From NCBI GenBank assembly GCA_949130485.1, contig OX422204.1:2328876-2392875 (forward strand): a DNA stretch of 64,000 nucleotides, read 5' to 3'. The notes beneath the pieces are model-generated. The model worked only from the letters and a program-made list of their open reading frames with translations, was not told the origin of the DNA and made no database searches. Shown in pieces: positions 7,001-64,000 of the stretch. Numbering within the stretch: the stretch's first letter is position 1; each line of letters begins with the position of its first letter. The position numbers and the translations under genes were made by a program. The stretch is from Agelas oroides (taxonomy: Eukaryota; Porifera; Demospongiae; Agelasida; Agelasidae).

Positions 7001-10000
7001 TACACAGACTTCCAATGTTAACTGTTTTACCTATAATTGTGTATGCTATTTAGATAAACAGCTATCGTCCCCATGTAGTCTTAAGCACAAGAATGTAAAC
7101 GCTAAAGAAAGGGTATTGTTATTATTTTCAATACCATATCACTGTAGTATTTTTCTCCACTAGTATCTTTTGGTAATGGCAGGAGGGGGTTGAGGTAACA
7201 ATGCATGACTTCTTTGCAAGGCAATGTCCACTAACCTAGTTTTCTCAGTCCTCATGCAGCATTAGCATTAGGTGCTGTAAACAATGAATGCTGCTTGTGG
7301 CCTGGGAACGAGGCTAGTGTTTCACCACATTTGCTATTTTCAGGGCTTCTGTGGTGTATAACCACAACACACTCTAGTATATATAGCAGTGTGCTACTGT
7401 GAGAGATATACACACAATTTTGTGAGAACTGTTGATGCCAAGAGAAAGAGAAATGAATTCAATAACCCAAACCACATACCTTCTGAACACTCATCTGTCT
7501 CAACACTAGCCACACATCTCGTTCCCAGGCTCTCATGCATTGGAGTGAGGCTAGCCACATGTCTCGTTCCAAGACTCTCATGCATTGGAATGAGGTTAGC
7601 CACATGCCTCGTTCCAAGGCTCTCATGCATTGGAATGAGACTAACCACATTCTGGCACTACTGCAATCATACAGACTAGGTCAGATGTTGTGAAGGTGAC
7701 TTGTGATGAACAGTGGTTTTGTGACTCTCCTAATAGTAACATACTTGGCATGGAACACAAATAACATTTCAGCACTAGATGAGACCTTGTCACAGATAAC
7801 TAATGATTTGAGGGGTGATACAAATACACAAAGGGGGGACTCTATATAATCTAATTGTGATCATATACATAATGGAATAGTTAACTGTATAAACAGTACA
7901 GTCTCTACAATAAAAAAATGTTGATAACTCACTGCAAGCATGACTATATAGGTATACTCCAGGAACCGTATCAGTGCATTGGTTCAGTATTGGTTCCGTA
8001 GTTCACTACTTGGTTCGTTTGAATGGTAAGGGACGTACGTTCATCAACATCAGTGCCACTTTGCAAGGGATCATCAATCTCGGTGTCTTTCACAGACCAG
8101 GACATGTCTCGATACTGATGTGGGTTCTCCAATCTGTCCGGAATTTCAGATGAGGTTGAAACTTCTTTTCTTCTTCGTTGTGTTCCAGTACTTTGTGTTA
8201 GTGGCTGACCCTCAGGTGTTGTACATTTAAACTTACTGATGCAGTACTTTTTGCAACAGGCCGATCCAAACAAGGAGCGGTAAACAACATAGCCAATCAT
8301 GTACGTAAGTGGTAGGAACGTAAGTATATAAGTGGCAACCATACTGAAATGTGGGAAACTTCTGTGTGATATAAGACGCATGTATGCATAGAGCGTCAAA
8401 GAATTGATTAGAAGCAACAACACTATCATTGACACGTCCAGACAGTTGAAGAATTTCTGCTTGTAGGGTTGGAATATGACAAACAGAACTAGCATGCCTA
8501 TATATGCAAATACCAGGTACGTAAAGAATAAGGGCAAGTCATTTTTGGCAGATGTGTAGATGGTGAAGATTACTATCCTGAACACAAAATACAGCCCTGC
8601 GAAACACCGTTCTTTTCCAATCTTGTAGCATCCCTGGAAGGTATCGATGAACATGTGAAGAGCGGGTGACTGTAGCAGTCTGTAGCGATTCAAACATCTC
8701 TGAAATCGTCTGAAAGGGTAGAGCAGCAAAAGAATTGGAGGAATTGCACCAAAGGTCAACAGGACAAAAGTTGCTAGGATGGCATAGGGTAGGTGTGCTC
8801 GTCCAAAGTAGTGGATGCTTGGATCATACCTTAGTACTGTGTCAGTTACATTTCCTGAGTCATTGAAAACATGACTTGGTGTCAGAAGACTGAGAGAAAC
8901 TCGGACAAATTTGGTGTAAGAAAGAAGGATGAAGACTGCAAATGCATCCATGGTGGATGTCTTTGGTTGCCATGTTCTTCGAAAGCGAACAAACAGTAAG
9001 CATAGAGGCCTCCACAGACACACAACTGGCCTAAAGTTGCGTGCATGTAACTCAATAATGATGAAAGCAAGCATCGACAAAACTAGAGGATAGACTGCAC
9101 TAATGTACTGAAGTGCAAGAATATGAGCAACTGAAATGGATCGACTGAGACAAAAATCAGGCCCACTTATAGAAGAAAAGTCAAGACTCCAAATGCTGTA
9201 TGGAAATATTACAATGCCAGACAATAATATGGCTAACCGTGATCCTTTGAGCAACATATTCAGTGACGTTGTAATAAGCAGTACCTCAAATGGAAGGGAA
9301 ATGATCTGGCTAAAGAAAATGAAGGCATTTGTTGCAGCACTTGTTATGCTAATGTGGAAGATGAACACGATAAGAAAGAAGATGGTTAGTGGAACTAACT
9401 CCATTGCAAAGTACCTAAGCCAGTTTGTGTATGATTCTTTGCACTTTACACACTTAAAGCTTGGAGAGTAAACGGCAACACCATAACCTGCTTTGCATTT
9501 CGAACACAGCCTCCCTCTGCGACTCAAATTGCCACAGAATGAATCGTTTAGCTCCTTTGGAAGTTTTATGAATTCCATTGATTCCTGATATCCTGCTGAG
9601 AAGGGACAATGGGCTGCAATTGGAAATCCATCACTTTCGTTATAAGAAATACAGCCACCAATCTCGAGATACGATCTGAACTTTTCAGATTTACAACGGA
9701 CAAGCCCTCGAAACCCCTTACCACACTCGCACCTCTTTTCTGTTTCATTATACACGAATCCTGGGGGACATTGCTGGATGTTTATCTTCAGTTCCAAAGA
9801 TACTGCAATGGCACCGAATGTTTCAAGTGATATATTGGCTTGTGTATTAGGAGGCCCGTCAACAGTCAGAGAGTCATCAGATACATAGAGCAAATCAAGA
9901 TCGACTGATGTTGAAGGTTTTAGTAGAGACACTGTGAAGATGGTTTGGTTTGTTACATTATGCTCAAGTTCATCTAGTGCTTGAATATGAAGTGCTTCGG

Positions 10001-13000
10001 ATTTACCTGGGAACAAACTATGAGATCGGCCATTTGTAGTCAACTTGACAGGTGATGTAAGTATTTCATCTGCACAGGTGGAGTTGGGTTCCAGATCTTT
10101 GAATTCCCACCCATTCCAACTGCAAAATGTTTGATTTATATCATATTCGATGGGAGAGGTAGAATTTCGAGGCCAGGTACATGGCAGCAGTGAACTCAGG
10201 TGTATCGAGTTGTTTCGTCGATTGAATGCAGTGTTATTGGAGAAGATAAACTTTGAAGTCCAGTTCTGGGGAGGGCAGTAAGGGTCAAAGTAGCGAATGA
10301 AGCATGTGTGTGAGTAAGCTGTTGAATGCTGTTCTGTTTGAATGACAAATATTGCACCTCCCTTTTCACTTGCAACGTTACTGTGGAATGTAAGCTGCGT
10401 TCCTTCATGCACAACAATCCAAGAATTACCGAGTATAGCCATGGCACCACCAATGCGGCCATGGTTCTCAATGAAGCTAACGTTGGCGTTCCTTGCAAAC
10501 TCGATGCTAGCAGCCTGAGCAACAAGTGCTGAACCTTTGTTGCCATAGTAGAGTATAGACCCTGAGAAGTAAGTCGGAATTCCTTCCACATACACTGTGG
10601 CAAATGTTCCCCCAGTTACTTTTCTTGGTGTATTCCTGTTCAGGTATGTGTACAAACCTCCATTTTCACAGAACCTGCAGTTCATAAACCTTGGTGTAGC
10701 ACAGTAACCATTTGTGGTCATGTTTGAGAATGAGAGCCAGTGGAAAATGTTGACAGCAGCACCCACCCTACCGAAATTTCTTTCAAAGTTGCAACCATTG
10801 AATTCAGCGACATTTGTGAGTGCTAGTTTGGAATCTACACTTGTTGAGAGGAAAGCAATGCCTCCCCCCTGGTAAGCTTCATTTTGTGTGAAGTTACAAA
10901 ATTCGAAGACAATATTGTTGCTGTTGGTTTCAGTTCCTGGATAGAGAAAGAAGAAGAGTGCTGCTCCACCACCGGTAGAAAAGGTGCTAGGAGGAACAAC
11001 TTGTTTATAGCATAGATTTGACACAAATGTCATGGATGCTAGTTTTACTGTGTTGTTTTGGCTTCCATCTTCAATGCTGACTTGTACACCAGCCCCACTC
11101 TTAGCCCGATTGCCATGAAAGCTACAGTTAGTCAAAGAGATGTAGTTATCTTTGGCGCACCACCCCTTGAAGAAAATAGCCAACCCTCCACCTCTCCCGA
11201 ATGAAAACTGTTTCTCACAGCCTGGACGGGAAAAGTGATGTGCTATGTCAAACTCGCCCGTGGATGCTTCATTTCCATCAAACTGACAACCAGTGATATT
11301 GTAGGTTGCATTTGAGATGTAGGTATTTGAAAGTTCAGACTCACAGTTAATAGGTGGGATAATACATGGTGTAAATTCCACATAAATCCCTCCTCCACCC
11401 GGTAAATTGCCAGTGCCATTTGCAGTGTTGTTGACAATCATAGAATCCGTGATCTTGACATCACCAATCGCGTTTAAAAAAGCAACTCCTGTCCCATTTG
11501 AGCTGTGAACGTTAATCTTTGTCAACGTGATGTCCTCACTAACTAGAAAAAGAAGAGCAACCTGAAAGTGGAGGTAGGGGAGAGATGAGCTTGTAAAGTT
11601 CCTGCTTGTACTCAAGTGTCTGGCTCCGCAGCCTACAAAGGAGAGGTTTTCCATCAAAATGTTGGTTGATCTGTTGAAAGCAATTCCAGCTAGTGGGTGA
11701 CATTCAATCACTGCTTCATTGCCATGTCCCAGGATTGATAGACTGCTTTTGCCTTGAAATATGATGCTTTCTGTCAAGTTGTACTGACCTGGTTCAATCA
11801 CAATTTGCACAAAGCCACTGAAAGTTTCAGCACCTTGGAGTGCAAGGTCAAGACTTGCACAGGGCCACTCGGGACTGACTTCACTCCAGCAACTGTTGTT
11901 CAAAGTCCCATTGTGACTGACTAAAATGGTGCGGTTGTACTCATAGCCTGTACCCTTTTCCACTGCTTGCAATGCTACTAGCAGCAAAATTTGGAGACAC
12001 ACAGGCAGAAACATCCTTCAAAATTGATCACAGCAAATATCAATAGCTCTATCCAAACACACAATGCCTGTTTGTTAGCCACTATTTAGGTCAACAATTT
12101 CTGCCCCCATGGAGTCATAACCACAAAAATGTATATACAAAGAGTTTTTTTTTATCCATTTCACCTAATGTGGTATTTTTTGATGGTTGTTGACTACATA
12201 CAAGATAGGTCATGCATGGCAAAAGGGAATTGACAAATCACAGTAGTTTATGTAATAGCCTTGTTCCCCAGGCTCTTGTGCATGGGCCTGTCAACATGGC
12301 TATTTATGGAATCATCTATATACATGAGGTAATGATGCATGAGAATGTAGTCTACTAGCCTGGTTCTCAGGTCTCATGCAGCGTTTATTGCATCATTTCA
12401 TTTCATTGCTTACAGTGCAAAATAAATATACCCTATGAATGCTGCTTCAGGCCAGGGAATGAGGCTAGCAACATTTGCTGTTAACAGGGCTTCTGTATAG
12501 AAGTACCTTATGTTACTTTTAATTGCGCATACTTAATTTAGCAAGTAACATTAAGGTATCTTCCATAACCACAGCACACTCTAATATAGCAAGTGTGCTA
12601 CTGTGAGAGATATAGACACAATTTTGTGAGAGCTGTTGATGCCAATAGAAGAGAAATGACCCAAACCACATACCTTCTGAACACTGATGTGACTCAAGGC
12701 TAGCCACATGTCTCGTTCCAAGGCTCTCATGGATTGGAATGAGGCTAGCCACATGTCTCGTTCCAAGGCTCTCATGCATTGGAATGAGGCTAGCCACATG
12801 TCTCGTTCCAAGGCTCTCATGGATTGGAATGATGCTAGCCACATGTCTCGTTCCCAGGCTCTCATGCATTGGAATGAGGCTAGCCACATGTCTCATTCCC
12901 AGGCTCTCATGCATTGGAATGAGGCTAGCCAACATGTCTCGTTTCAAGGCTCTCATGCATTGGAATGAGACTAGCCACATTCTGGCAATCATACAGACTA

Positions 13001-16000
13001 GGTCAGATGTTGTGAAGGTGACTTGTGATGAACAGTGGTTTTGTGGCTCTCCTAATAGTAACATACTTGGCATGGAACACAAATAACATTTCAGCACTAG
13101 ATGAGACCTTGTCACAGATAACTAATGATTTGAGGGGTGATACAAATACACAAAGGGGGGACTCTATATAATCTAGTTGTGATCATATACGTAATGGAGC
13201 AGTTAACTGTATAAACAGTACAGTCTCTACAATAAAAAATGTTGATAACTCACATGCAAAACATGACTATATAGGTATACTCCCGGAACAGTATCAGTGC
13301 GTTGGTTCAGTATTGGTTCCGTACTTCACTACTTTGTTCATTCGTATGGTTAGGGAGGTATGTTCATCAGCGTCAGCGTCACCTTGGAGGGGATCATTAA
13401 TCTCTGTGTCTGCCACAGACCAGGACATGTCTTGATACCGATGTGGGTTCTCCAATCTGTCCGGAATTTCTGATGTGGTTGAAATGTCCCTTCTTCTTCG
13501 TTGTGTGCCAGTACTTTGTGTTAGTGGCTGACCCTCGGGTGTTATTCGCTTAAACTTACTGATGCAGTACTTTTTGCAACAGGCTGATCCAAACAAGGAG
13601 CGGTAAACAACATAGCCAACCATGTATAGAAGTGGTAGAAACAGAAGTATATAGGTGCAAATCAGGCTCAAATACGGGAATGAGCCTAAGAGGAGAGATA
13701 CATATGCATATAGTGATAATGCATTGATGAGAACCAACAACACTATCATCAACACGTCCAGACAGTTGAAGAATTTCTGCTTGTAGGGTTGGAATATGAC
13801 AAACAGTACCAGCATACCCATGTATGCAAATACCAGGTACGTAAAGAATAAGAGCAAGTCATTTTTGGCAGATGTGTAGATGGTGAAGATTACTATCCTG
13901 AACACAAAATATAGCCCTGCGAAACACCGTTCTTTTCCATTCTTGTAGCATCCCTGGAAGGTATCGATGAACATGTGAAGAGCGGGTGACTGTAGCAGTC
14001 TGTAGCGATTCAAACATCTCTGAAATCGTCTGAAAGGGTAGAGCAGCAAAAGAATCGGAGGAATTGCACCAAAGGTCAACAGGACAAAAATTGCTAGGAT
14101 GGCATAGGGTAGGTGTGCTCGTCCAAAAAAGTGGGTGCTCGGATCATACCTTAGTACTGTGTCAGTTACATTTCCTGAGTCATTGAAAACACGACTTGGT
14201 GTGAGAAGACTGAGGGAAACTCGGACAAATTTGGTGTAAGAAAGAAGGATGAAGGCTGCAAATGCATCCATGATGGACGTTTTTGGCTGCCATGTTCTTC
14301 GAAAGCGAACAAACAGTAAGCATAGAGGCTTCCACAGACACACAACTGGCCTAAAGTTGCGTGCATGTAACTCAATAATGATGAAAGCAAGCATCGACAA
14401 AACTAGAGGATAGAGTGCACTAATGTACTGAAGTGCAAGAATATGAGTAACTGAAATGGATTGACTGAGACAAAAGTTAGGCCCACTTATAGAAGAAAAG
14501 TCAAGGCTCCAAATGCTGTATGGAAATACAACAACGCCAGACAATAATATAGCTAACCGTGATCCTTTGAGCCACAAGTTCCATGATGTTGTAATAAGCA
14601 GTACCTCAAATGGAAGGGAAATCACCTGGCTGAAAAAAATGAAGGCATTTGTTGCAGCACTTGTTATGCTGATGTGAAAGGTGAACACGATCAGAAAGAA
14701 GATGGTTAGTGGAACTAACTCCATTGCAAAATACCTAAGCCAGTTTGTGTATGATTCTTTGCACTTTACACACTTAAAGCTTGGAGAGTAAATGGCAACA
14801 CCATAATCCACTTGGCATTTCGAGCACAGCCTCCCTCTACGACTCATTTTGCCACAGAATAAATTGTTTAGCTCATTGATACTCCCCGGAAGTTTTATAT
14901 ATTTCATTGACTCCTGATATCCTGCTGAGAAGGGACAGTAGGCTGCAATTGGAAATCCATCACTTTCGTTAAAAGAAATGCAGCCACCAATTATGAGATA
15001 AGATCTGAACTTCTCAGATTTGCAATGGACAAGCCCTCGAAATCCCCCACCACACTTGCACCCCTTTTCTGTTCTATTATACACGAATCCTGGTGGACAT
15101 TGCTGGATGTTTATCTTCAGTTCCAAAGATACAGTGATGGCACCAAATGTTTCAAGTGATATATTGGCTTGTGTATTAGGAGGCCCGTTGACAGTCAGAG
15201 AGTCATCAGATACATAGAGCAAATCGAGATCGACCGACGTTGAAGATTCTAGTAGGGACACTGTGAAGACGGTTTGGTTTGTTACATCATGCTTGAGTTC
15301 ATCTAGTGCTTGGATATGAAGCCCTTCGGATCTACCAGGGAATAAATTGTGCTTTTTAGAATTATTTATAGCAAGCCTGACAGGAGACGTAAGGATTTCA
15401 TCTGCACAGGTGGAGTTAGGTTTCAGATCTTTGAATTCCCACCCATTCCAACTGCAAAATGTTTGATTGATATCATATTCAATGCTGGAGGTAGAATTTT
15501 GATGCCAGGTACATGGCAGCAGTGAACTCAGGTGTATCGAGTTGTTTCGTCGATTGAATGCAGTGTTGTTTGAGAAGGTAAACCTTGAAGTCCAGTTCTG
15601 GGGAGGGCAGTAAGGGTCAAAGTAGCGAATGAAGCATGTGTGCGAGTAAGCTGTTGAATGCTGTTCTGTTTGAATGACAAATATTGCACCCCCCTTTTCA
15701 CTTGCAACATTACTGTGGAATGTAAGTTGTGTTCCTTCATGCACAACAATCCGAGAATTACCAAGTATAGCCATGGCACCACCAATGCGGCCATGGTTCT
15801 CAATGAAGCTAACGTTGGCGTTCCTTGCAAACTCAATGCTAGCTGCCTGAGCAACAAGTGCTGAACCGTTGTTGCGATAGTAGAGTATAGACCCTGAGAA
15901 GTAAGTTGGAATTCCTTCCACATACACTGTGGCAAATGTTCTCCCAGTTACATTTCCCTGCAAGTATGTGTACACACCACCATTTTCACAGAACCTGCAG

Positions 16001-19000
16001 TTCATAAACCTTGGTATAGCACAGTAACCATTTGTGGTCATGTTCGGGAATGACAGCCAGTGGAAAATGTCAACAGCACCACCCACCCTTGCAACATTAC
16101 TTTCAAAGTTGCAACCATTGAATTCAGCAACATTTGTGAGTGCCTGTTTGGAGTCTACACTTGTTGAGAGGAAAGCAATACCTCCCCCCTGGTACGCTTC
16201 ATTTTTTGTGAAGTTACAGAATTCAAAGACAACAATGTTGCTGTTGGTTTCCATCTCTGGAGAGAGAAGGAAGAAGAGTGCTGCTCCACCACCGGTAGAA
16301 AAGGTGCTTGGAGGAACAACTTGTTTATAGCATATGTTCAACACAAAAGTCGTGGATGCTAGTTTTACTGTGTTGTTTTGGCTTCCATCTTCAATGCTGA
16401 CTTGTACACCAGCTCCAATCTCAGCCCAATTGCCGTGAAAGCTACAGTTAGTCAAAGAGATGTAGTTATGTTTGGCACACCCCTTGAAGAAAATAGCCAA
16501 CCCTCCACCTCTCCCGAATGAAAACTGTTTCTCACAGCCTGGACGGGAAAAGTGATGTGCTATGTCAAACTCACCTGTGAATGCTTCATTTCCATCAAAC
16601 TGACAACCAGTGATATTGTAGGTTGCATTTGAAATGTAGGTATTTGAAAGTTCAGACTCACAGTTAATAGCTGGGGTAATACATGGTGTAAATTCCACAT
16701 AAATTCCTCCTCCACCCAGTAAATTGCCAGTGCCATTTGCAGTGTTGTTGACAATCATAGAATCTGTGATCTTGACATCACCAATTACGTTTAAAAGAGC
16801 TACTCCTGTCCCATTTGAGCTGTGAACGATAATCTTTGTCAACGTGATGCCCTTGCTAACTAGAAAAAGAAGAGCAACCTGAAAGTGGAGGTAGGGGAGA
16901 GATGAACTTGTAAAGTTCCTGCTTGTACTCAAGTGTCTGGCTCCGCAGCCTACAAAGGAGAGGTTTTCCATCAAAATGTTGGTTGATCTGTTGAATGCAA
17001 TTCCAGCTAGTGGGTAACATTCAATCACTGCTTCATTGCCATGTCCCAGGATTGATAGACTGCTTTTGCCTTGAAATATGATGCTTTCTGTCAAGTTGTA
17101 CTGACCTGGTTCAATCACAATTTGCACAAAGCCACTGAAAGTTTCAGCACCTTGGAGTGCAAGGTCAAGACTTGCACAGGGCCACTCGGGACTGACTTCA
17201 CTCCAGCAACTGTTGTTCAAAGTCCCATTGTGACTGACTAAAATGGTGCGGTTGTACTCATAGCCTGTACCCTTTTCCACTGCTTGCAATGCTACTAGCA
17301 GCAAAATTTGGAGACACACAGGCAGATACATCCTTCAAAATTGATCACAGCAAATATCAATAGCTCTATCCAAACACACAATGCCTGTTTGTTAGCCACT
17401 ATTTAGGTCAACAGTTTCTGCCCCCATGGAGTCATAACCACAAAAATGTATATACAAAGAAGGTTTTTTATCCATTTCACCTAATGTGGTATTTTTTGAT
17501 GGTTGTTGACTACATACAAGATAGGTCATGCATGGCAAAAGGGAATTGACAAATCACAGTAGTTTATGTAATAGCCTTGCTCTTGTGCATGGGCCTGTCA
17601 ACGTGGCTATTTATGGAATCATCTATATACATGAGGTAATGATGCATGACAAGGTAGTCTACTAGCCTGGTTCTCAGGTCTCATGCAGCGTTTATTGCAT
17701 CATTTCATTGCTTACAGTGCAAAATAAATATAATTATGCATGTACCCTATGAATGCTGCTTCAGGCCTGGGAATGAGGCTAGCCATATTTGCTGTTTTCA
17801 GGGCTTCTGTATAGAAGTATCTTCCATAACCACAGCACACTCTAGTATAGCAAGTGTGCTACTGTGAGAGACATACAATGTAGACACAATTTTGTGAGAG
17901 CTGTTGATGCCAATAAAAAGAGAAATGAACCCAAACCACATACCTTCTGAACACTCATCTGTCTCAAGGCTAGCCACATGCCTCGTTCCAAGGCTCTCAT
18001 GCATGGGAATGAGACTAGCCACATGCCTCGTTCCAAGGCTCTCATGCATGGGAATGAGACTAGCCACATGCCTCATTCCCAGGCTCTCATGCATGGGAAT
18101 GAGACTAGCCACATGCCTCGTTCCCAGGCTCTCATACATGCATGGGAATGAGACTAGCCACATTCTGGCACTACTGCAATCCTACAGACTAGGTCAGATG
18201 TTGTGAAGGTGACTTGTGATAAACAGTTGTTTTGTGGCTCTTCTAATAGTAACATACTTGGCATGGAACACAAATAACATTTCAGCACTAGATAAGACCT
18301 TGTCACAGGTAACTAATGATTTGAAGGATGATACAAATAACTTTTCAGCACAAAGGGGGGACTCTATATAATCTAGTTGTGATCATATACGTAATGGAAT
18401 AGTTAACTGTATAAACAGTACAGTCTCTACAATAAAAAATGTTGATAACTCACTGCAAGCATGACTATATAGGTATACTCCAGGAACAGTATCAGTGCGT
18501 TGGTTCAGTATTGGTTCCGTAGTTCACTACTTGGCTCATTCGCACAGTAAGGGACGTATGTTCATCAGCGTCAGGGCCACCGTGCAAGGGATCATCAATC
18601 TCGGTGTCTGCCACAGACCAGGACATGTCTTGATATCGATGTGGGTTTTCTACTCTGTCCGGAATTTCAGATGAAGTTGAAAGTTCTCTTCTTCTTCGTT
18701 GTGTTCCAGTACTTTGTGTTAGTGGCTGATCCTCGGGCGCTGTTCGTTTAAACTTACTGATGCAGTACTTTTTGCAACAGGCTGATCCAATCAAGGAGCG
18801 GTAAACAACATAGCCAACCATGTATAGAAATGGTAGAAACATAAGTGTATAGGTGCCAATCAGGGTCAAATATGGGAAGCTTCCATGTGAGCTCAAGAGG
18901 AGAGATACATATGTATAGAGTGACAATACATTGATGAGAACTAACAACGCTATCATCAACATGTCCAGACAGTTGAAGAATTTCTGCTTGTAGGGTTGGA

Positions 19001-22000
19001 ATATGACAAACAGTACCAGCATACCTATGTTTGCAAACACCAGGTATGTAAAGAACAAGGGCAAGTCACTTTTGGCAGATGTGTAGATGATGAAGGTTAC
19101 AACCCTGAACACAAAATATAGCCCTGCGAAACACCGTTCTTTTCCATTCTTGTAGCATCCCTGGAAGGTATCGATGAACATGTGAAGAGCGGGTGACTGT
19201 AGCAGTCTGTAGCGATTCAAACATCTCTGAAATCGTCTGAAAGGGTAGAGCAGCAAAAGAATCGGAGGAATTGCACCAAAGGTCAACAGGACAAAAGTTG
19301 CTAGGATGGCATAGGGTAGGTGTGCTCGTCCAAAATAGTGGGTGCTCGGATCATACCTTAGTACTGTGTCAGTTATATTTCCTGAGTCATTGAAAACATG
19401 ACTTGGTGTCAGAAGACTGAGAGAAACTCTGACAAATTTGGTGTAAGAAAGAAGGATGAAGGCTGCAAATGCATCCATGGTGGATGTCTTTGGTTGCCAT
19501 GTTCTTCGAAAGCGAACAAACAGTAAGCATAGAGGCCTCCACAGACACACAACTGGCCTAAAATTGCGTGCATGTAACTCAATGATGATGAAAGCAAGCA
19601 TCGACAAAACTAGAGGATAGACTGCACTAATGTACTGAAGTGCAAGTATATGAGCAACTGAAATGGAGTGACTGAGACAAAAATCAGGGCCACTTATAGA
19701 AGAAAAGTCAAGACTCCAAATGCTGTATGGAAATATTACAATGCCAGACAATAATATGGCTAACCGTGATCCTTTGAGCCACAAGTTCAGTGACGTCGTA
19801 ATAAGCAGTACCCCAAATGGAAGTGAAATGACCTGGCTGAAGAAAATGAAGGCATTTGTTGCAGCACTTGTTATGCTAATGTGGAAGATGAACACGATCA
19901 GAAAGAAGATGGTTAGTGGAACTAACTCCATTGCAAAGTACCTAAGCCAGTTTGTGTATGATTCTTTGCACTTTACACACTTAAAGCTCGGAGAGTAAAC
20001 GGCAACACCATAACCTGCTTTACATTTCGAACACAGCCTCCCTCTACGATTAATCTTGCCACAGAATGAATCGTTTAGCTCATAGATGCTCCTTGGGAGT
20101 TTTATGTATTTCATTGATTCCTGATATCCTGCGGTGAAGGGACAGTGGGTCGCAATTGGAAATTTATGATTTTCATCAAGAGAAATGCAGCCACCAATCA
20201 TGACATAAGATCTGAACTTCTCAGATTTGCATTGGACAAGCCCCCGAAACCCCCGACCACAAGTACAACTCTTTTCTGTTTCATTATACACAAACCCTGG
20301 TGGACACGGCTGGATGTTTATTTCTAGTTCCAAAGATACTGCGATGGCACCAAATGTTTCAAGTGATATACTGGCTTGTGTATTAGGAGGCCCATCAACA
20401 GTCAGAGAGTCATCAGATACATAGAGCAAATTGAGATTGACTGACGTTGAAGGTTCTAGTAGGGACACCGTGAAGACGGTTTGGTTTGTTACATCATGCT
20501 TGAGTTCATCTAGTGCTTGAATATGAAGCGCTTCGGATCTACCAGGGAATAAATTATGCATCTTAGATTTGTTAAAAGCAAGTCTGACAGGTGACGTAAG
20601 GATTTCATCAGCACAGGTGGAGTTAGGTTTCAGATCTTTGAATTCCCACCCATTCCAACTGCAAAATGTTTGCTTTATATCATGTTCGATGAGAGAGGTA
20701 GAATTTCGAGGCCAGGTACACGGTAGCAGTGAACTCAGGTGTATCGAGTTCTTTCGTCGGTTGAATGCAGTGTTGTTTGAGAAGATAAACTTTGAAGTCC
20801 AGTTCTGGGGAGGGCAGTAAGGGTCAAAGTAGCGAATGAAGCATGTGTGCGAGTAAGCTGTTGAATGCTGTTCTGTTTGAATGGCAAATATTGCACCTCC
20901 CTTTTCACTTGCAACATTACTGTGGAATGTAAGTTGAGTTCCTTCATGCACAACAATCCAAGAATTACCAAGTATAGCCATGGCACCACCAATGCGGCCA
21001 TGGTTCTCAATGAAGCTAACATTAGCGTTGCTTGCAAACTCAATGCTAGCAGCCTGAGCAACCAGTGCTGAACCTTTGTTGCCATCATAGAGTATAGACC
21101 CTGAGAAGTAAGTTGGAATTCCTTCCACATACACTGTGGCAAATGTTCTCCCAGTTACATTTCCCTGCAAGTATGTGTACACACCACCATTTTCACAGAA
21201 CCTGCAGTTCCTAAACCTTGGTGTAGCACAGTAAACATTTGTAGTTATGTTCGGGAATGACAGCCAGTGGAAAATGTCGACAGCAGCACCCACCCAACCG
21301 ACATTACTTTCAAAGTTGCAGCCATTGAATTCAGCGACATTTGTGAGTGCTAGTTTGGAGTCTACACTTGTTGAGAGTAAAGCAATGCCTCCCCCTTGGT
21401 AAGCTTTGTTTTGTGTGAAGTTACAGAATTCAAAGACAACAATGTTGCTGTTGGTTTCCATCTCTGGAGAGAGAAGGAAGAAGAGTGCTGCTCCACCACC
21501 GGTAGAAAAGGTGCTTGGAGGAACAACTTGTTTATAGCATATGTTCAATACAAAAGTCGTGGATGCTAGTTTTACTGTGTTGTTTTGGCTTCCATCTTCA
21601 ATGCTGACTTGTACACCAGCTCCAATCTCAGCCCAATTGCTGTGAAAGCTACAGTTAGTCAAAGAGATGTAGTTATCTTTGGCACACCCCTTGAAGAAAA
21701 TAGCCAACCCTCCACCTCTCCCGAATGAAAACTGTTTCTCACAGCCTGGACGGGAAAAGTGATGTGCTATGTCAAACTCGCCCGTGGATGCTTCATTTCC
21801 ATCAAACTGACAACCAGTGATATTGTAGGTTGCATTTGAAATGTGAAGTTCAGACTCACAGTTAATAGCTGGGGTAATACATGGTGTAAATTCCACATAA
21901 ATCCCTCCTCCACCCAGTAAATTGCCAGTGCCATTTGCAGTGTTGTCGACAATCATAGAATCTGTGATCTTGACATCACCAATCGCGTTTAAAAAAGCAA

Positions 22001-25000
22001 CTCCTGTCCCATTTGAGCTGTGAACGTTAATCTTTGTCAACGTGATGTCCTTGCTAACTAGAAAAAGGAGAGCAACCTGAAAGTGGAGGTAGGGGAGAGA
22101 TGAGCTTGTAAAGTTCCTGCTTGTACTCAAGTGTCTGGCTCCACAGCCTACAAAGGAGAGGTTTTCCATCACAATGTTGGTTGATCTGTTGAATGCAATT
22201 CCAGCTAGTGGGTGACATTCAATCAGTGCTTCATTACCATGTCCCAGGATTGATAGACTGCTTTTGCCTTGAAATATGATGCTTTCTGTCAAGTTGTACT
22301 GACCTGGTTCAATCACAATTTGCACAAAGCCACTGAAAGTTTCAGCACCTTGGAGTGCAAGGTCGAGACTTGCACAGGGCCACTCAGGACTGGCCTCACT
22401 CCAGCAACTGTTGTTCAAAGTCCCATTGTGACTGACTAAAATGGTGCGGTTGTACTCATAGCCTGTACCCTTTTCCACTGCTTGCAATGCTACTAGCAGC
22501 AAAATTTGGAGACACACAGGCAGATACATCCTTCAAAATTGATCACAGCAAATATCAATAGCTCTATCCAAACACACAATATGTCTTACTTTGTTAGCCA
22601 CTATTTAGGTCAAGAATTACTGCCCCCATGGAGTCATAACCACAAGAATGTATATACAGAAAGGGATTTTTATCCACTTTCACCTAATGTAGTATTTTTG
22701 ATGGTTGTTGACTACATACAAGATAGGTCATGCATGGCAAAAGGGAATTGACAAATCACAGTAGTTTATGTAATAGCCTTGTTCCCCAGGCTCTTGTGCA
22801 TGGGCCTGTCAACATGGCTATTTATGGAATCATCTATATACATGAGGTAATGATGCATGACAAGGTAGTATCCACTAGCCTAGCTCTCAGGTCTCATGCA
22901 GCGTTTATTGCATCATTTCATGCATTGCTTACAGTGCAAAATAAATATATGCATGTACCCTATGAATGCTGCTTCAGGCCAGGGAATGAAGCTGGTGTTC
23001 ACACCACATTTGCTGGTAGCAGGGCTTCTGTGGTGGATAGAAGTACTAACTACTGTACACTCAACCTAGTCTTGTATCCAGGCTAGGAAATGAGCCTGGG
23101 TACAAGGGCATTCTTCATGGTATAGCAACTGTGCATACTGACCATTATGATTTCTAGTACTGTTGAGAGATAGAGGCTCAATTTGTGAGAGCTGTTGACG
23201 CCAAGAGAAATGCATTCCAGAACTAATACCTCTGACACTACGTAGCTAGCCACATCCTGGCACTGCATGATGCAGTCTAGCCTCATTCTCAGGCCTTCCT
23301 ACCATCCATTTTTTGATTGTTTTTTTTTTGTAAGTGATCAAAAACTGGAGATGGGGAAGGCCTGGGAGCAAGGCTAACTGCAGACTAGGTCAGATGTTGT
23401 GATGGTAATTCATGGTCGACAGTCGTTTTGTGAATCTCAGCCTTGGCATGGAACACAACTTCTCATCAGTCATACAGACCCTCGAGAAAAAATTCCAGTG
23501 CATGCTATATAATTATATATAGTTATCTCTAATTGGAATGGGGCATATTTTACTTCCACATTTATATCATCCCAATTACTTTTCGGTATGTATGACAATG
23601 CTCAGCTGTTGTCATATGGGACACAATACTGGAGTGTTATTTCTTGGCAGCCATGGTTATAATACTTTATACTACAGGCTTATTATCAACGACTGCTTAG
23701 ACAGTGGAACTCAGCTGCCATTCATCAAGAGAGCCATGAGGGTAAGTCAACGAGACAGTACCATTGTCAGTTATAGATAGCCTCGTTCCCAGGCCGCGCC
23801 CAGCTTCCCGTCGCTTGCAGTACGGTTAAGCGTACTGCAAGCGACGGGAAGCTGGGCGCGGGCCTGGGAACGAGGCTAAGTTATAGACGTACTTGTTCTG
23901 AAGCCACCACCTCAGCTTGTCATTGAGCTAGACATAGCCTCATTCCCAGGCCCCCCCCCCCCCCCCCCAGTTTTTGAGGAGAGAGCCTGGAACGAGGCTA
24001 AGCAACAAAGCTAGAATGGTACAAGTACTGTTGCAACCAGCGAATAATGAATAATATGCAATTATGGCCACATTACACCTGATGGTCTCCTCCATGTGAG
24101 AGCTACCTTTAGTAAATTAGGTCTTCATGTGGTGAGGGCTTTTGTTTGCACGGTTAGGGTGCTCACCGTGAAGTAGCAGCCTTCAGCCTGAGCATCAAAC
24201 TATGTCTACAACATGCCAGAGGTTATTGCTGAGTGGTAAGAGCATCTCACTGGTGTTCAGAAAGACCCAGCTAGGTTGGAGCCTAGCTGGTTCTCAATTA
24301 TTTATACTCCTGCTAAGTTACAAATTACCTACACGTACATTGTTTCAATACCTTGCATGCTTCACCAATTGTTAGGAAGGCTATGGTGTGTTGGTTCTAA
24401 ACACAAACAGAAACCATGAAGAGGTCAACGGAGAGAACATTCCAATTCGAGTGAGTTTTACTTTACCTACGTAGTTCTAGGGAGTTCTGTAAGTGGTCAG
24501 TGTAAATATACACACAAGTGTGCGCAGTGCAGTCCTGCTACTGTGGGCTTATTCTATCAAGCGAGACCATCTCTTACTAAGCTCATTTCTGGAGGGTGGG
24601 AGATAGTCTAGTTTGACAGAGACCAGCTCAGGCTGTTGAGTGGGATAGCATGCCCACTTATAATTGCATTCATATTATTGTGGCTTCATATGGAAACACA
24701 GCGAAACACAAGGCATACCAGTGGTGTGGTTTTCTGGGAATTATACAAGCACATAGCTCTTTCACGAAGCCTTTCTCCATAGCTTCAGCTTGCGTACTTA
24801 GAACTGTACAAGCAGTAACAAAACAGCTTTTCAGGAAATACATGAAAAACAAAGTCACATGATAAAACCCAACTACTAAGCCTCTTGGCTCATAGCTGAA
24901 GAATATCATCACTACAGAATAAGAATGAGCATCAACAGCGTTACTTACGAACTATGGAGAACAGAAGAGTGCATGCAAGAACACATTAACAGAAGTATGC

Positions 25001-53671: not shown

Positions 53672-53679
53672 AGAGAGGA

Positions 53680-56600
53680 GCTGCTTAGAGTTGGAGAGGA
53701 GCTGCTGAGACTTGGAGAGGAGGAGCTGCTGAGACTTGGAGAAGAGCTGCTGAGACTTGGAGAGGAGGAGCTGCTGAGACTTGGAGAAGAGCTGCTGAGA
53801 CTTGGAGAGGAAGAGCTGCTGAGACTTGGAGAGGAGGAGCTGCTGAGACTTGGAGAGGAAGAGCTGCTGAGACTTGGAGAGGAGGAGCTGCTGAGACTTG
53901 GAGAGGAGGAGCTGCTGAGACTTGGAGAGGAAGAGCTGCTGAGACTTGGAGAGGAGGAGCTCCTGAGACTTGGAGGGGAGGAGCTGCTGAGACTTGGAGA
54001 AGAGGAGCTCCTGAGACTTGGAGAAGAGGAACTGCTGAGACTTGGAGGACTTGGAGGGGAGGAGCTGCTGGACTTGGAAGGGAGGAGCTGCTGAGACTTG
54101 GAGAGGAGGAGCTGCTGAGACTTGGAGAGGAGGAGCTGGTGAGACTTGGAGAGGAGGAGCTGCTGAGACTTGGAGAGGAGGAGCTCCTGAGACTTGGAGG
54201 GGAGGAGCTGCTGAGACTTGGAGAGGAGGAGCTCCTGAGACTTGGAGGGGAGGAGCTGCTGAGACTTGGAGAAGAGGAGCTGCTGAGACTTGGAGAAGAA
54301 GAGCTGCTGAGACTTGGAGAGGAGGAGCTGCTGAGACTTGGAGAGGAAGAGCTGCTGAGACTTGGAGAGGAGGAGCTGCTGAGACTTGGAGAAGAGCTGC
54401 TGAGACTTGGAGAGGAGGAGCTGCTGAGACTTGGAGAAGAGCTGCTGAGACTTGGAGAGGAGGAGCTGCTGAGACTTGGAGAAGAGCTGCTGAGACTTGG
54501 AGAGGAAGAGCTGCTGAGACTTGGAGAGGAGGAGCTGCTGAAACTTGGAGAGGAGGAGCTGCTGAGACTTGGAGAGGAGGAGCTGCTGAGACTTGGAGAG
54601 GAGGAGCTCCTGAGACTTGGAGGGGAGGAGCTGCTGAGACTTGGAGAAGAGAAACTGCTGAGACTTGGAGAGGAGGAGCTGCTGAGACTTGGAGGACTTG
54701 GAGGGGAGGAGCTGCTGGACTTGGAAGGGAGGAGCTGCTGAGACTTGGAGAAGAGGAACTCCTGAGACTTGGAGAAGAGGAACTGCTGAGACTTGGAGGA
54801 CTTGGAGGGGAGGAGCTGCTGAAACTTGGAGGGGAGGAGCTGCTGAGACTTGGAGAGGAGGAGCTGCTGAGACTTGGAGAAGAGGAGCTCCTGAGACTTG
54901 GAGAAGAGGAACTGCTGAGACTTGGAGGACTTGGAGGACTTGGAGGGGAGGAGCTGCTGAAACTTGGAGGGGAGGAGCTGCTGAGACTTGGAGAGGAGGA
55001 GCTGCTGAGACTTGGAGAGGAGGAGCTCCTGAGACTTGGAGGGGAGGAGCTGCTGAGACTTGGAGAGGAGGAGCTGCTGAGACTTGGAGAGGAAGAGCTG
55101 CTGAGACTTGGAGAGGAGGAGCTCCTGAGACTTGGAGGGGAGGAGCTGCTGAGACTTGGAGAAGAGAAACTGCTGAGACTTGGAGAGGAGGAGCTGCTGA
55201 GACTTGGAGGACTTGGAGGGGAGGAGCTGCTGGACTTGGAAGGGAGGAGCTGCTGAGACTTGGAGAAGAGGAGCTCCTGAGACTTGGAGAAGAGGAACTG
55301 CTGAGACTTGGAGGACTTGGAGGGGAGGAGCTGCTGAAACCTGGAGGGGAGGAGCTGCTGAGACTTGGAGAGGAGGAGCTGCTGAGACTTGGAGAAGAGG
55401 AGCTCCTGAGACTTGGAGAAGAGGAACTGCTGAGACTTGGAGAAGAGGAACTGCTGAGACTTGGAGGACTTGGAGGGGAGGAGCTGCTGGACTTGGAAGG
55501 GAGGAGCTGCTGAGACTTGGAGAGGAGGAGCTGCTGAGACTTGGAGAGGAGGAGCTGCTGAGACTTGGAGAAGAGGAGCTCCTGAGACTTGGAGAAGAGG
55601 AGCTCCTGAGACTTGGAGAAGAGGAACTGCTGAGACTTGGAAGACTTGGAGGGGAGGAGCTGCTGGATTTGGAAGGGAGGAGCTGCTGAGACTTGGAGAG
55701 GAGGAGCTGCTGAGACTTGGAGAGGAGGAGCTGCTGAGACTTGGAGAGGAGGAGCTGCTGAGACTTGGAGAGGAGGAGCTCCTGAGACTTGGAGGGGAGG
55801 AGCTGCTGAGACTTGGAGAAGAGAAACTGCTGAGACTTGGAGAGGAGGAGCTGCTGAGACTTGGAGGACTTGGAGGGGAGGAGCTGCTGGACTTGGAAGG
55901 GAGGAGCTGCTGAGACTTGGAGAAGAGGAGCTCCTGAGACTTGGAGAAGAGGAACTCCTGAGACTTGGAGAAGAGGAACTGCTGAGACTTGGAGGACTTG
56001 GAGGGGAGGAGCTGCTGAAACTTGGAGGGGAGGAGCTGCTGAGACTTGGAGAGGAGGAGCTGCTGAGACTTGGAGAAGAGGAGCTCCTGAGACTTGGAGA
56101 AGAGGAACTGCTGAGACTTGGAGGACTTGGAGGGGAGGAGCTGCTGAAACTTGGAGGGGAGGAGCTGCTGAGACTTGGAGAGGAGGAGCTGCTGAGACTT
56201 GGAGAGGAGGAGCTCCTGAGACTTGGAGGGGAGGAGCTGCTGAGATTTGGAGAGGAGGAGCTGCTGAGACTTGGAGAGGAAGAGCTGCTGAGACTTGGAG
56301 AGGAGGAGCTCCTGAGACTTGGAGGGGAGGAGCTGCTGAGACTTGGAGAGGAGGAGCTGCTGAGACTTGGAGAGGAAGAGCTGCTGAGACTTGGAGAGGA
56401 GGAGCTCCTGAGACTTGGAGGGGAGGAGCTGCTGAGACTTGGAGAAGAGAAACTGCTGAGACTTGGAGAGGAGGAGCTGCTGAGACTTGGAGGACTTGGA
56501 GGGGAGGAGCTGCTGGACTTGGAAGGGAGGAGCTGCTGAGACTTGGAGAAGAGGAGCTCCTGAGACTTGGAGAAGAGGAACTGCTGAGACTTGGAGGACT

Positions 56601-58585
56601 TGGAGGGGAGGAGCTGCTGAAACTTGGAGGGGAGGAGCTGCTGAGACTTGGAGAGGAGGAGCTGCTGAGACTTGGAGAAGAGGAGCTCCTGAGACTTGGA
56701 GAAGAGGAACTGCTGAGACTTGGAGGACTTGGAGGGGAGGAGCTGCTGGACTTGGAAGGGAGGAGCTGCTGAGACTTGGAGAGGAGGAGCTGCTGAGACT
56801 TGGAGAGGAGGAGCTGCTGAGACTTGGAGAAGAGCTGCTGAGACTTGGAGAGGAAGAGCTCCTGAGACTTGGAGGGGAGGAGCTGCTGAGACTTGGTGAG
56901 GGGGAACTGCTGAGACTCGGAGAGGGGCTGATAAGACTTGGAGAGGAGCTGCTGAGAGTTGGAGAGTATATAGCTGCTGGAATGGAGGAAACTGCTGCGA
57001 CTTGGAGGGGAGGAACTGCTGAAACTTGGAGAGGAGGAGCTGCTGAGACGTGGAGGGGAGGAGCTGCTGAGACTTGGAGAAGAGGAGCTGCTGAGACTTG
57101 GAGAAGAGGAACTGCTGAGACTTGGAGGACTTGGAGGGGAGGAGCTGCTGAGACTTGGAGGGGAGGAGCTGCTGAGACTTGGAGGGGAGGAGCTGCTGAG
57201 ACTTGGAGGGGAGGAGCTGCTGAGACTTGGAGAAGAGGAGCTCCTGAGACTTGGAGAAGAGGAACTGCTGAGACTTGGAGGACTTGGAGGGGAGGAGCTG
57301 CTGAGACTTGGAGGACTTGGAGAAGAGGAGCTGCTGAGACTTGGAGGACTTGGAGGGGAGGAGCTGCTGAGACTTGGAGATGAGGAGCTCCTGAGACTTG
57401 GAGAAGAGGAACTGCTGAGACTTGGAGGACTTGGAGGGGAGGAGCTGCTGAGACTTGGAGGGGAGGAGCTGCTGAGACTTGGAGGGGAGGAGCTGCTGAG
57501 ACTTGGAGAAGAGGAGCTCCTGAGACTTGGAGAAGAGGAACTGCTGAGACTTGGAGGACTTGGAGGGGAGGAGCTGCTGAGACTTGGAGGACTTGGAGAA
57601 GAGGAGCTGCTGAGACTTGGAGGACTTGGAGGGGAGGAGCTGCTGAGACTTGGAGAAGAGGAGCTCCTGAGACTTGGAGAAGAGGAACTGCTGAGACTTG
57701 GAGGACTTGGAGGGGAGGAGCTGCTGAGACTTGGAGGACTTGGAGAAGAGGAGCTGCTGAGACTTGGAGGACTTGGAGGGGAGGAGCTGCTGAGACATGG
57801 AGATGAGGAGCTCCTGAGACTTGGAGAAGAGGAACTGCTGAGACTTGGAGGACTTGGAGGGGAGGAGCTGCTGAGACTTGGAGGGGAGGAGCTGCTGAGA
57901 CTTGGAGGGGAGGAGCTGCTGAGACTTGGAGAAGAGGAGCTCCTGAGACTTGGAGAAGAGGAACTGCTGAGACTTGGAGAGGAGGAGCTGCTGAAACTTG
58001 GAGAAGAGCTGCTGAGACTTGGAGAAGAGGAACTGCTGAGACTTGGAAGACTTGGAGGGGAGGAGCTGCTGAGACTTGGAGGGGAGGAGCTGCTGAAACT
58101 TGGAGAGGAGGAGCTGCTGAGACTTAGAGAGGAGAAGCTGCTGAGACTTGGAGGACTTGGAGGGGAGGAGCTGCTGAAACTTGGAGAGGGGGAGGTGCTG
58201 AGACATGGAGAGGAGGAGCTCCTGAGACTTGGAGAAGAGGAACTGCTGAGACTTGGAGGACTTGGAGGGGAGGAGCTGCTGAGACTTGGAGGGGAGGAGC
58301 TGCTGAAACTCGGAGAGGAGCTGCTGAGACTTGGAGGACTTGGAGAGGAGGAGCTGCTGAGACTTGGAGGACTTGGAGAGGAGGAGCTGCTGAGACTCTG
58401 AGGGAGGAACTGCTGAGACTTGGAGGGGAGGAGCTGCTGAGACTTGGAGAGGAGGAGCTGCTGAGACTTGGAGCGGGGGGAGCTGCTGAGACTTGGAGCG
58501 GGGGGACTGCTGAGGAGGAGCTGCTGAAACTTGGAGCGGGGGGACTTGGAGGGGAGGAGCTGCTGAGACTTGGATAAGAGGAGGA
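53680..58585. repeat. 24-bp minisatellite, ~4.9 kb
   Basis: The unit is GACTTGGAGAGGAGGAGCTG plus CTGA, about 200 copies with point variants (GAAGAG, GGGGAG, CTCCTGA, CTGCTGG). Shorter units (21 bp) and insertions of GAGGACTTG (giving TTGGAGGACTTGGAGG) are also frequent. Because the unit is a multiple of three and lacks stops in most frames, - strand frames of more than 1500 codons (SSSSPSLS, KSQQLLLS and LQVSAAPP phases) and many + frames (LRLGEEEL, ETWRGGAA) result. Blocks of ~220-270 bp containing GAGGACTTGGAGGGGAGG recur, indicating higher-order amplification. I do not call a gene: there is no start context, promoter, conserved flank or domain, and several frames are equally open. Confidence 0.95.
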
Positions 58586-59655: not shown

Positions 59656-60065
59656 GGCATGCTCATCAACCTCATGGCTGACGGCCACCACAGTGTCATG
59701 CTTAACAGCAACGGAGGAGTCCAGAGCAACTGGTATCTTGTTCCCAGACTCCTCCTGAGCAGATAGTGTGGCACATGTACATTTAGCCTCCATTCCAGTT
59801 TCCACCCCCCTTCTCCTTCTGTTTTTGCATACTACAAGTGATCAAGAGCTTCTGAAGGCGGGAAAGGCCTGAGAATGAGTTAGACCACTCCAAGAGTTTA
59901 TTACAGTAAGAGTGTGCAACTCCCATATGGTTTCTACACCTGCCATGTGGATAGGCAATCTGCTGTGAATATCCTCAGCAGTTACTTAGTATTGAAGCCA
60001 TTCCAGGTGCTAGTGTACATTGGCTATGTGAACAAGCCAACTGTAAGCTCACTTACACTTGCAAC

Positions 60066-60152
60066 TCTGCAGACGGTACTGGACATCTGGAGCTGGCAGA
60101 CAAGCATGAGAAGGAGGCAAGGAAAGGATGGCAACATGCAACTAAAAAGGGT
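60066..60152 (+). pseudogene. Orphan duplicate of the CARD exon end
   Basis: About 85 bp (CTGCAGACGGTACTGGACAT onward) matches the last part of the CARD exon at 62264-62336 with roughly 85% identity, keeping frame (ADGTGHLELADKHEKEARKG) and the splice donor (AAAAAGG|GTATGT). The rest of the CARD is missing upstream. A possible further exon, 60848-60981 (GSEYYATAILKLLHQSF, phase 2, GTGAGT donor), lies downstream. It is either a partial tandem duplication of the CARD/NB-ARC gene or a diverged neighbour. Confidence 0.6.
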
Positions 60153-61797: not shown

Positions 61798-64000
61798 ATG
61801 GTTAGAAGAAGAGCAGCTAGGAAAGGTCAGTGTTCGATAGTCAGAATCGCAAGACACACCCTTCGGCTTCGTTCTGTACGAAGCTCAAAGGGGTGTGGTT
61901 TGCGAGACTTGCATATAGAGGTTCTATTATTTACATGTGAGGAATGGTTATGGACTAATCATAAATCACACAGGTGCAAGGCATGCAGAACATCTGCCTA
62001 ATGCTGCAGCAGGCCTTTCTGCCAAACAGCAGGAACAAGTCTTGGATGCACGTTATCGAGATATTCAAGATTGCTTGAACCTTGACGAAATATTCCCCCA
62101 TCTCTGTCAGCATCACTTATTGACATCTGCTGAGAAGCAGGAGCTCTTGAATCCAATGTACACATCCAATCACAAGATCCACAAGCTAATAACGTGGATA
62201 CCCCGAAAGGGATGTGATGCTCTACATCGCTTTATCATTTGCCTAAAACATTCTGCAGACGGTACTGGACATTTGGAGCTGGCAGATACGCTTGAGAAGC
62301 AGACAAGAAAAGGACGGCAGTACACAACTAAAAAAGGTATAAGATGCTTGCCTTGTTGCCAAACTGTTGTGCCTTTAGTCAAAGTTGTTGGGATCATGAA
62401 GCAGTGCCAGTTATGTATAGCGCTTTTGAGGTTGTATCCATCTTGTACTGCCATCTTGGTGAACCACATGAACATGTTATGGAGATAGCATCTCAGTTTT
62501 TGGGGTTTGAGGCTAATTGGCAGAGCTCTGCTGTTCTTGCATTCTAGCTGGCACGGCAGTATGTAAAGAAGTAGCTAGCTTCACACTATATTTGGTGCAA
62601 TGCTTTTCATTGCAGGTGTAACTGGGGTAGTCCACTACCCATTCGTAAGGACAGCATTTGTTGTCACTCTGGCATGTATCCTGGGTGTGGTACTGTTGTT
62701 TGGTAAGTCAGACATAGTGTATCAGTTCAACCTCCATCATTCCAAAACACTACCATACCCTTTATCAAACTTTGTTGGTCGCACTGTTGAAATGGAAAAA
62801 CTAGATGATCTTTTGGACATCAATAACCAAGATGTTCGCATAGTCAGCATTGTTGGATCTCCAGGATTCGGAAAGAGTACTCTGGCAATTCAGGTTGGAC
62901 ACAATCTAGTACGGAAAGGATTTATTGTTCACTATGTGAACATGATTGAGGTTTTAGCTGTGGAGGCTTTACCAGAAAAGCTCCTCGATGGCGCAGAAAT
63001 AAAAACTAAAAATGCAACTACTGATCGGCTTCTGAAATGGTCACGAGGTTTGCCATATCCAACAGTGATGATCTTTGATAATTGTGACAATATACTTCAC
63101 AGGCAAAAGAATGAACTACAGGGAATAACAAAAAAGCTACTCCAGTCATCTTCAAAGCTAAAAATTATGATGACCAGTAGGCAAAGAACAATGCAGCTCG
63201 CTAATTTTCGATCATTTCCTTTACGTGAGCTTTCAAGAGAAGCTTCATGTTTCTTACTCCAAAATGTAGTGAAAGATCTTGACTCAATGTTTTGTGAACC
63301 AATGACAAATCTGACAGGCAATGTGCCCCTGGCACTGCTGGTAGTTGGGTCACTTTTGAATCTGCCTGACCCACCCACTCCTGATTCCCTCATTACCGAC
63401 CTCAGGGATCATCTCATGGCAACACTCAGTCCTGAAGACCTTCCAGATGAAGATCGAGTCAATGTTTCCATAGCTTTGTCTTACCAGTACTTGAACCAGC
63501 CGGTACAAAAAGTAGGCAGATACCTTGCAAACTTTCCAGGATCATTTGATAAAAAAGCAGCACGTGAAATTTTACTTACTATTTCTCGCAAAGTGGACTC
63601 TGATAGTTGTGATAAAGTGGATGTACACTTGAATACACTTATGCAGCGATCTCTGCTGGAGTACAATCAACGAACAGATCGATACCAGTTTCACCGTCTT
63701 ATCAGAGAATTTTTTAGAAGTGTTCAGAAGTCTATTGGAAAAAATGGCCTCAAAGAAGCAAGGAGGTTTGCTATTGCCTTCCAGCTGTATTACAGCAAAG
63801 TTTTAGGGTCACTTGCCAACCAATTCTCTCACGATTATGCCGATGCCCTCCACATTCTTGACACCGAAAGACATAACATTGAAAAGCTTCTCCTAAGTTT
63901 CAGCTCTGGTATCACCACCCACACAGTTGCTCTATCTACAGTATTGGCAGTAAATTCCGCACTTGGTAAAAGATTACTGCATTGCCGATTTAGTGCAGAA
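61798..64000 (+). CDS. CARD - transmembrane - NB-ARC protein (5' part; runs off window)
   Basis: Exons 61798-61825, 61974-62336 and 62616 to the window edge, phases 1 and 1, about 592 codons so far. A short basic start (MVRRRAARKG) leads into a CARD at ~20-115 (LDARYRDIQDCLNLDEIFPH, LLTSAEKQELL, WIPRKGCDALHRFI, GHLELADTLEK). Exon 3 begins with a hydrophobic helix at ~142-160 (TAFVVTLACILGVVLLFG). The NB-ARC follows: FVGR at its entry, P-loop GSPGFGKST (~211), Walker B VMIFDN (~281), sensor-type MMTSRQR, GLPL-like GNVPLALL (~366) and FHRLIREFF (~487). Known relatives (APAF1, CED-4, NLRs) are cytosolic apoptosome/inflammasome-like ATPases and normally lack a membrane helix. TPR, WD40 or other sensor repeats probably follow beyond 64000. 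A signalling role in immunity or cell death is inferred. Confidence 0.85.

Follow-up and report, generated by a model that had tools for sequence, protein, structure and literature searches.

NB-ARC proteins act in cell death in animals and in disease resistance in plants, and they are taught as soluble, cytosolic switches. The gene at the 3' end of the stretch analysed here (the window, 64,000 nucleotides from the sponge Agelas oroides) reads as a CARD and an NB-ARC ATPase with a hydrophobic helix between them. This raises the questions whether the helix is genuine protein sequence and, if so, on which side of a membrane the ATPase would lie. The reading we favour, with some reserve, is a type II membrane receptor of the STAND class with a cytosolic CARD, an exoplasmic part of NB-ARC, winged helix and TPR-like repeats, and a C-terminal re-entry into the membrane.

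Gene structure and domain organization

For the target gene (locus L008, plus strand) we predict three exons, of which the first is short and carries the start, the second encodes the CARD and the third is long. Exon 1 (61798..61825) holds the start codon and would encode a basic N-terminus, MVRRRAARK(G), followed by a putative donor, gtcagt, at 61826. Exon 2 (61974..62336) contains the CARD (62051..62257, residues 24-92 of the query; PF00619, E 3.8e-7, 30.5 bits, above the cut-off of 23.9) and ends with a basic linker, RKGRQYTTKK(G), and a candidate donor, gtataag. Exon 3 starts at 62616, after the acceptor ttttcattgcag ending at 62615, and remains open beyond the window end at 64000 to 65557 (2579-5557 of the locus), giving 980 amino acids and a protein that would comprise ~1111 residues. 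As predicted from the genomic sequence, the exon 1/2 and exon 2/3 junctions are both in phase 1 and in frame.

Exon 3 encodes, in this order, the hydrophobic helix, NB-ARC, a winged helix, a TPR-like superhelix and C-terminal hydrophobic segments at ~65557. The transmembrane-like helix, TAFVVTLACILGVVLLFG, lies at 62651..62704, 3' of the acceptor and within the exon, has a hydropathy of 2.43, and corresponds to residues 8-28 of the AlphaFold2 model. The first-pass annotation had described a hydrophobic helix between CARD and NB-ARC, encoded at the start of the NB-ARC exon in continuous phase, and the predicted junctions bear this out; domain order and in-frame helix can be read from the genome sequence, given the exons as predicted. 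The NB-ARC domain (62789..63361; PF00931, E 8.2e-9, 35.5 bits, above the cut-off of 23.5) has an intact Walker A motif in its P-loop, GSPGFGKST (62855..62881), of which G80, P82, G85 and K86 are invariant in 15 aligned paralogues and S87 is found in at least 90%; an LDNCD-type Walker B and a GNxPLAL motif are visible in the same alignment. The secondary structure of the model places a winged-helix region, with the motifs RSLL and FHRLI, at 63458..63733, where a match to WHD_ROQ1 is weak and under the cut-off. The target thus has an NB-ARC plus winged-helix fold, as in NB-ARC STAND ATPases, and a NACHT match stays below the cut-off (14.8 against 26.7 bits).

From 63740 the exon encodes a TPR-like helical superhelix, which runs through the window end at 64000 to ~65095. 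Its continuation answers what the first-pass annotation had left to the sequence beyond 64000, namely the sensor repeats: TPR-like helices are followed by the C-terminal hydrophobic segments in a frame open to 65557. The best Foldseek match (E 2.5e-12) is PDB 6mfv, a tetratricopeptide-repeat STAND protein. In the full 980-residue exon, Pfam lists neither WD40 nor LRR families at E <= 0.05, and the repeats appear TPR-like. Another hydrophobic segment, IIITDIILVWFKLFTWIPV, was considered as a membrane helix and is not counted as such, because in the model it falls largely within the final helix of the repeats. As read from the genomic exons, a CARD precedes NB-ARC in the target as in APAF1 apoptosome proteins.

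Conservation of the helix in a paralogue family

Apart from fragments, protein searches of the sponge's own genome recovered 16 paralogous loci whose frame could be used, and we estimate the family at about 16 genes, all genome search counts being lower bounds. Left out of the counts were an APAF1-like NB-ARC gene on C6, which belongs to a different family, a broken copy on C10 (L026), a 28-residue fragment on C3, two matches on C5 that are NACHT genes, and a short third copy (L027). L024 contains one in-frame TAA and was used with its first frame alone, and the partial L015 was counted as far as its frame extends; alignment A3 was made without L024, so that column and cysteine counts are out of 15. 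L016 and L019 score above the Pfam cut-off for NACHT and not above that for NB-ARC, hence the family spans both models. In 10 of the 16 members the frame also encodes hydrophobic segments near its C-terminal end. Outside this genome, relatives were sought in bacterial, archaeal and viral collections, where 24 pattern matches in genome contigs and 57 in viral contigs yielded none that was confirmed; conservation of the helix is therefore demonstrated within one genome.

The target helix peaks at a hydropathy of 2.43 over 19 residues. When a 51-residue stretch was shuffled in 20,000 trials, this value was reached in 0.18% of the shuffles with the composition of the soluble part of the exon and in 0.47% with that of the whole exon. 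All 16 loci carry such a peak (1.73 to 3.45 over 19 residues; 1.91 in L012 when taken from the acceptor onward) at most 75 residues before the NB-ARC F-V-G-R motif, while none of eight NACHT controls has a helix, their peaks over the 120 residues that lead up to the P-loop not exceeding 1.07. Between subfamilies the helices have few residues in common and their hydrophobicity is kept. The dN/dS of the helix region was 0.39-0.43 in three pairs and 0.72-0.97 in the other four of seven; the mixed values would fit selection for hydrophobicity and not for particular residues, which falls short of proof.

Splicing could in principle remove the helix as intronic sequence and leave a soluble CARD/NB-ARC protein. 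Polypyrimidine tracts can mimic a helix, and by eye the tract of an intron in the APAF1-like gene (L014) seems to do so before its NB-ARC exon. Further phase-1 AGs also lie at the start of the helix or inside it in L016, L017, L018, L019, L023 and L025. Against this, all 12 members without an in-frame Death domain have a phase-1 AG before the helix: in the six just named, and by eye as an acceptor shortly upstream in L008, L010, L011, L012, L013 and L015. The remaining four, L020, L021, L022 and L024, read without a break from the latter half of a Death domain through the helix into NB-ARC; removal of the helix would require an intron concealed in that open frame. The low dN/dS of three pairs likewise speaks against an intron, and we regard a soluble mature protein as very improbable. 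For the target itself, a polypyrimidine artefact was rejected, as TAFVVTLACILGVVLLFG sits downstream of the acceptor within exon 3. Since all 16 members keep the helix, and in four of them a Death half and NB-ARC are continuous with it in frame, membrane anchoring of the target and its family, as predicted from these genes, is well supported.

Upstream of the helix exon, homologous CARD exons score above the cut-off in L008, L010, L011 and L012, and a Death domain does so in L015 and L023; in L025 the Death domain passes (9.9e-6) once two adjacent frames are joined, and neither frame alone does. The Death halves of L021 (E 0.0028), L024 (0.0091) and L020 (0.15) lie below the Pfam cut-off, and that of L022, unlisted by Pfam, was found solely with a local HMM built from its relatives. 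Sub-threshold death-fold matches precede the helix exon in L016 (0.0019), L019 (0.0029) and L017 (CARD, 0.084); for L013 and L018 Pfam gave no death-fold match, and their upstream frames look CARD-like by eye. We assign these upstream exons to the genes of the helix exons by assumption, on the grounds of order and strand. In L013 the helix and the FVGR start of NB-ARC are also partly duplicated, at 5189-5440, ~600 bases before the intact exon.

Orientation in the membrane

We compared the 15 residues before and after the helix in the 16 members. The N-terminal flank is more positive in 12, with three ties and one opposite case (L019), and the net charges sum to +29 against -7; L013, L017, L023 and L025 have N-side flanks shorter than ten residues, and L020, L022 and L024 are near-copies in the flank. 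By the positive-inside rule this excess would put the CARD or Death domain in the cytosol and NB-ARC outside.

The second line of evidence comes from glycosylation sequons, for which the N-x-T spacing was compared with nine other spacings in the region from the helix to the winged helix. The control consisted of 28 NACHT genes out of at least 105 scored NACHT matches. A smaller NACHT control that took in the LRR part showed an excess too (77 at +2 against 46-61 at other spacings), which came from the LRR part (67 against 34-51; first 450 residues, 10 against 6-12); the control was therefore limited to the NACHT cores and enlarged to 28 genes. N-x-T occurs 37 times in the family, against a mean of 15.1 at the other spacings, and 21 times against 22.3 in the NACHT cores (Fisher p 0.0008). 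With N-x-S and N-x-T pooled, the family has 73, where other spacings average 40.3, and the NACHT cores have 60, with a mean of 53.1 (p 0.008). The difference from the NACHT cores persists when the family is reduced to eight divergent members (43, mean 21.8; p 0.007); for N-x-S alone the family does not differ from the NACHT cores (p 0.36). Expressed as ratios of observed to other spacings, for all sequons and for N-x-T, the family reaches 1.81 and 2.45 and the NACHT cores 1.21 and 0.99, while the positive control, one of the secreted-type proteins encoded in the window, is stronger than the family with 2.76 and 4.29. These family counts are not independent, because the paralogues have common ancestry. 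Alignment A3 contains 106 sequons across 62 columns; ten CARD or Death sequences contain one in 765 residues, and the APAF1-like gene one in 370. The per-protein density of sequons (1.13 per 100 residues, against 0.44) is given no weight here, being uncorrected for the higher share of asparagine in the family (5.1% against 3.2%). The target gene alone has no sequon excess (5 against 4.9 expected).

A third indirect line comes from a cysteine pair in the winged helix, which is jointly present in 13 of the 15 aligned members and jointly absent in two, the target and its closest relative in the search (49%). As these two are each other's closest relatives, the joint absence probably reflects one event.

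An anchored protein might also keep both CARD and NB-ARC in the cytosol, held by a monotopic or hairpin anchor or by the helix paired with a second short hydrophobic stretch, and assemble like an apoptosome on the surface of an organelle. Classical NB-ARC proteins are cytosolic, and the intact Walker A motif is what one expects where cytosolic ATP is at hand. The missing sequon excess of the target gene points the same way, as does a second hydrophobic stretch seen by eye 3' of the helix in L010. The 16 members, however, have a single hydrophobic run of 15-28 residues as delimited, and the charge bias of 12 in 16 flanks and the family-wide N-x-T excess, which the NACHT cores do not have, also speak against it. 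We consider this arrangement rather unlikely, if a serious competitor. The topology with a cytosolic CARD or Death domain and an exoplasmic NB-ARC is favoured as the likeliest, and we infer the membrane side from these statistics. Of the earlier proposal that CARD and ATPase lie on opposite sides of a membrane, the anchoring is well supported, with the helix in all 16 members, and the sidedness has indirect indications, from charge and sequons.

An upstream frame of L013 (3780-4223) contains MGQTASSS, which we take to resemble an N-myristoylation signal; if it is part of the L013 NB-ARC gene, it would put the N-terminus in the cytosol.

Proposed mechanism

In the favoured topology the target would be a membrane-anchored STAND receptor whose N-terminal CARD, replaced by a Death domain in several other members, faces the cytosol, and whose helix is a signal anchor of type II. 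On the exoplasmic side, in the ER lumen, an endosome or the cell exterior, there would then be the NB-ARC ATPase together with the winged helix and the sensor of TPR-like repeats, and the C-terminal hydrophobic helices would go back into the membrane. Ligand binding to the TPR part may free NB-ARC to exchange nucleotide and oligomerise, and oligomers of the ectodomain may cluster the CARDs on the cytosolic face, where they could recruit CARD proteins such as caspases; the switch and the CARD clustering are assumed from STAND biology. The genome holds at least 89 CARD matches at E <= 0.1, and other CARD proteins among them are possible partners. Apoptosomes and resistosomes oligomerise and cluster domains in solution. 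With its CARDs clustered by an oligomerised ectodomain, we propose, the target would work in the manner of a death receptor whose ectodomain is of the apoptosome type.

The fullest form of this model is an inside-out apoptosome, in which a glycosylated luminal or extracellular NB-ARC and TPR part senses ATP plus ligand and drives cytosolic CARD or Death assembly through one helix. We put it forward tentatively, with slightly less than even confidence. An exoplasmic ATPase has against it that the NB-ARC proteins known to us function in the cytosol, with its plentiful ATP. If the model is true, a STAND switch can signal across a membrane, uniting in one design how death receptors and apoptosomes work, in a genome with many NLR-like genes; it would make the testable prediction of a glycosylated NB-ARC.

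A donor-like site behind the helix and tandem copies

Directly 3' of the helix, at 62703..62708, lies GTAAGT, a candidate splice donor. If some transcripts used it, a short MAVS-type CARD-TM protein would be made besides or instead of the full-length receptor. The third copy, L027 (C22:2405863-2407103; CARD 2864-3193, helix exon 3994-4104), has the identical GTAAGT after its helix, and a tblastn search from that helix to the next gene turned up no NB-ARC. It sits between the target and the neighbouring gene on C22, and its CARD exon, 78% identical, appears constrained (dN/dS 0.28); L027 could be a short MAVS-like CARD-TM gene or a remnant. In the target, however, GTAAG also simply encodes Gly-Lys after the helix, the long exon is open and conserved across the site, and by eye L010, L011 and L012 do not have GTAAGT at the equivalent position. 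A short product of the target gene therefore seems improbable to us, and we retain the full-length receptor.

A second CARD exon fragment at 60063..60152 (plus strand; tblastn, 30 residues with 73% identity to the C-terminal end of the CARD) is probably a relic of tandem duplication, and together with L027 it suggests such a history for the locus. A 4.8-kb minisatellite (53675-58514; unit GAGGAGCTGCTGAGACTTGGAGAG, ~193 copies) ends ~3.3 kb upstream of the target gene and has several open frames on both strands and a GC skew above 0.5.

Elsewhere in the window, four open frames, each 1346-1363 codons long, lie in tandem on the minus strand at 2942-22532. They encode secreted-type, sequon-rich proteins with a hydrophobic stretch at the N-terminus; in the one that was scanned, several hydrophobic segments lie at the C-terminal end, and Pfam lists nothing for it at E <= 0.01. 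In the assembly, a small contig carries COX1 in two pieces ~1.2 kb apart with in-frame TGA codons (G000:C141:13976-16550). It is probably an intron-bearing mitochondrial gene, and the TGA codons fit a code in which TGA is Trp. Another COX1 piece, on C107, is without TGA and possibly bacterial.

Comparison with known systems

The apoptosome proteins APAF1 and CED-4 are soluble; the target has a predicted TM helix between CARD and NB-ARC, TPR-like repeats in place of WD40 repeats and a hydrophobic C-terminus. TNFR-type death receptors and MAVS tether a cytosolic death-fold domain to a membrane, as the target would in the proposed layout. It would differ from them by its type II orientation and by an ectodomain made of an ATPase with TPR-like repeats. 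The structural match PDB 6mfv shares STAND and TPR parts with the target, and its title mentions neither a membrane helix nor a CARD.

The first-pass annotation called the design possibly undescribed, which is too strong, as membrane-bound NLRs have been reported from sponges and also from sea anemones, and a sea cucumber NLR with its NACHT outside the cell has been published. According to PMC12909245, NLRs with TM domains occur in Dysidea avara and, as cited there (Yuen 2014), in Amphimedon. Like the target, these are NLR-type immune proteins with predicted TM segments; they are of the NACHT-LRR type, with no TM position given in the accessible text, whereas the target has NB-ARC and TPR-like repeats and no LRR. 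In a sponge transcriptome, an NLR with a predicted TM domain is described as up-regulated upon microbial challenge (PMC6208332). Actiniarian NLRs with TM helices are reported as one clade, proposed to be membrane-bound (PMC5094078); they share TM helices with the target, but have 3-5 of them at the N-terminus, in contrast to one helix between death-fold and NB-ARC plus C-terminal helices.

Similar to the proposed layout is AjNLR-new of a sea cucumber (2026), described as Ig-TM-NACHT with NACHT extracellular and Ig intracellular and as driving phagocytosis (PMC13133943): a STAND domain outside the cell and a signalling domain inside. CARD or Death, NB-ARC and TPR, which characterize the target, are not mentioned in the accessible text of that report, which places the NACHT domain of a relative, AjNLRC4 (described earlier, PMC8699970), inside. 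If the favoured topology is true, the sponge family would be a second case beside this extracellular NACHT claim, in another animal and another STAND clade. Placozoans are reported to have 39 NB-ARC genes and NLR-like genes with WD40 or TPR, mostly with CARD or Death-like domains, for which the accessible text mentions no TM helix (PMC6321704), and in Acropora NACHT/NB-ARC genes occur with CARD, DED, Death and TPR (PMC4083563). Nor is a TM helix in NB-ARC proteins mentioned in the accessible parts of PMC8260672 and PMC2575513. Membrane-bound NLR-like proteins themselves being known, we place among them, as a variant, the order CARD/Death-TM-NB-ARC-TPR-TMs, of which we found no report in the literature searched, mostly the accessible text of papers outside subscription. 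By its TM helix, assigned from hydropathy, the target takes its place within the membrane-bound NLR-type proteins, to which it is likened by description.
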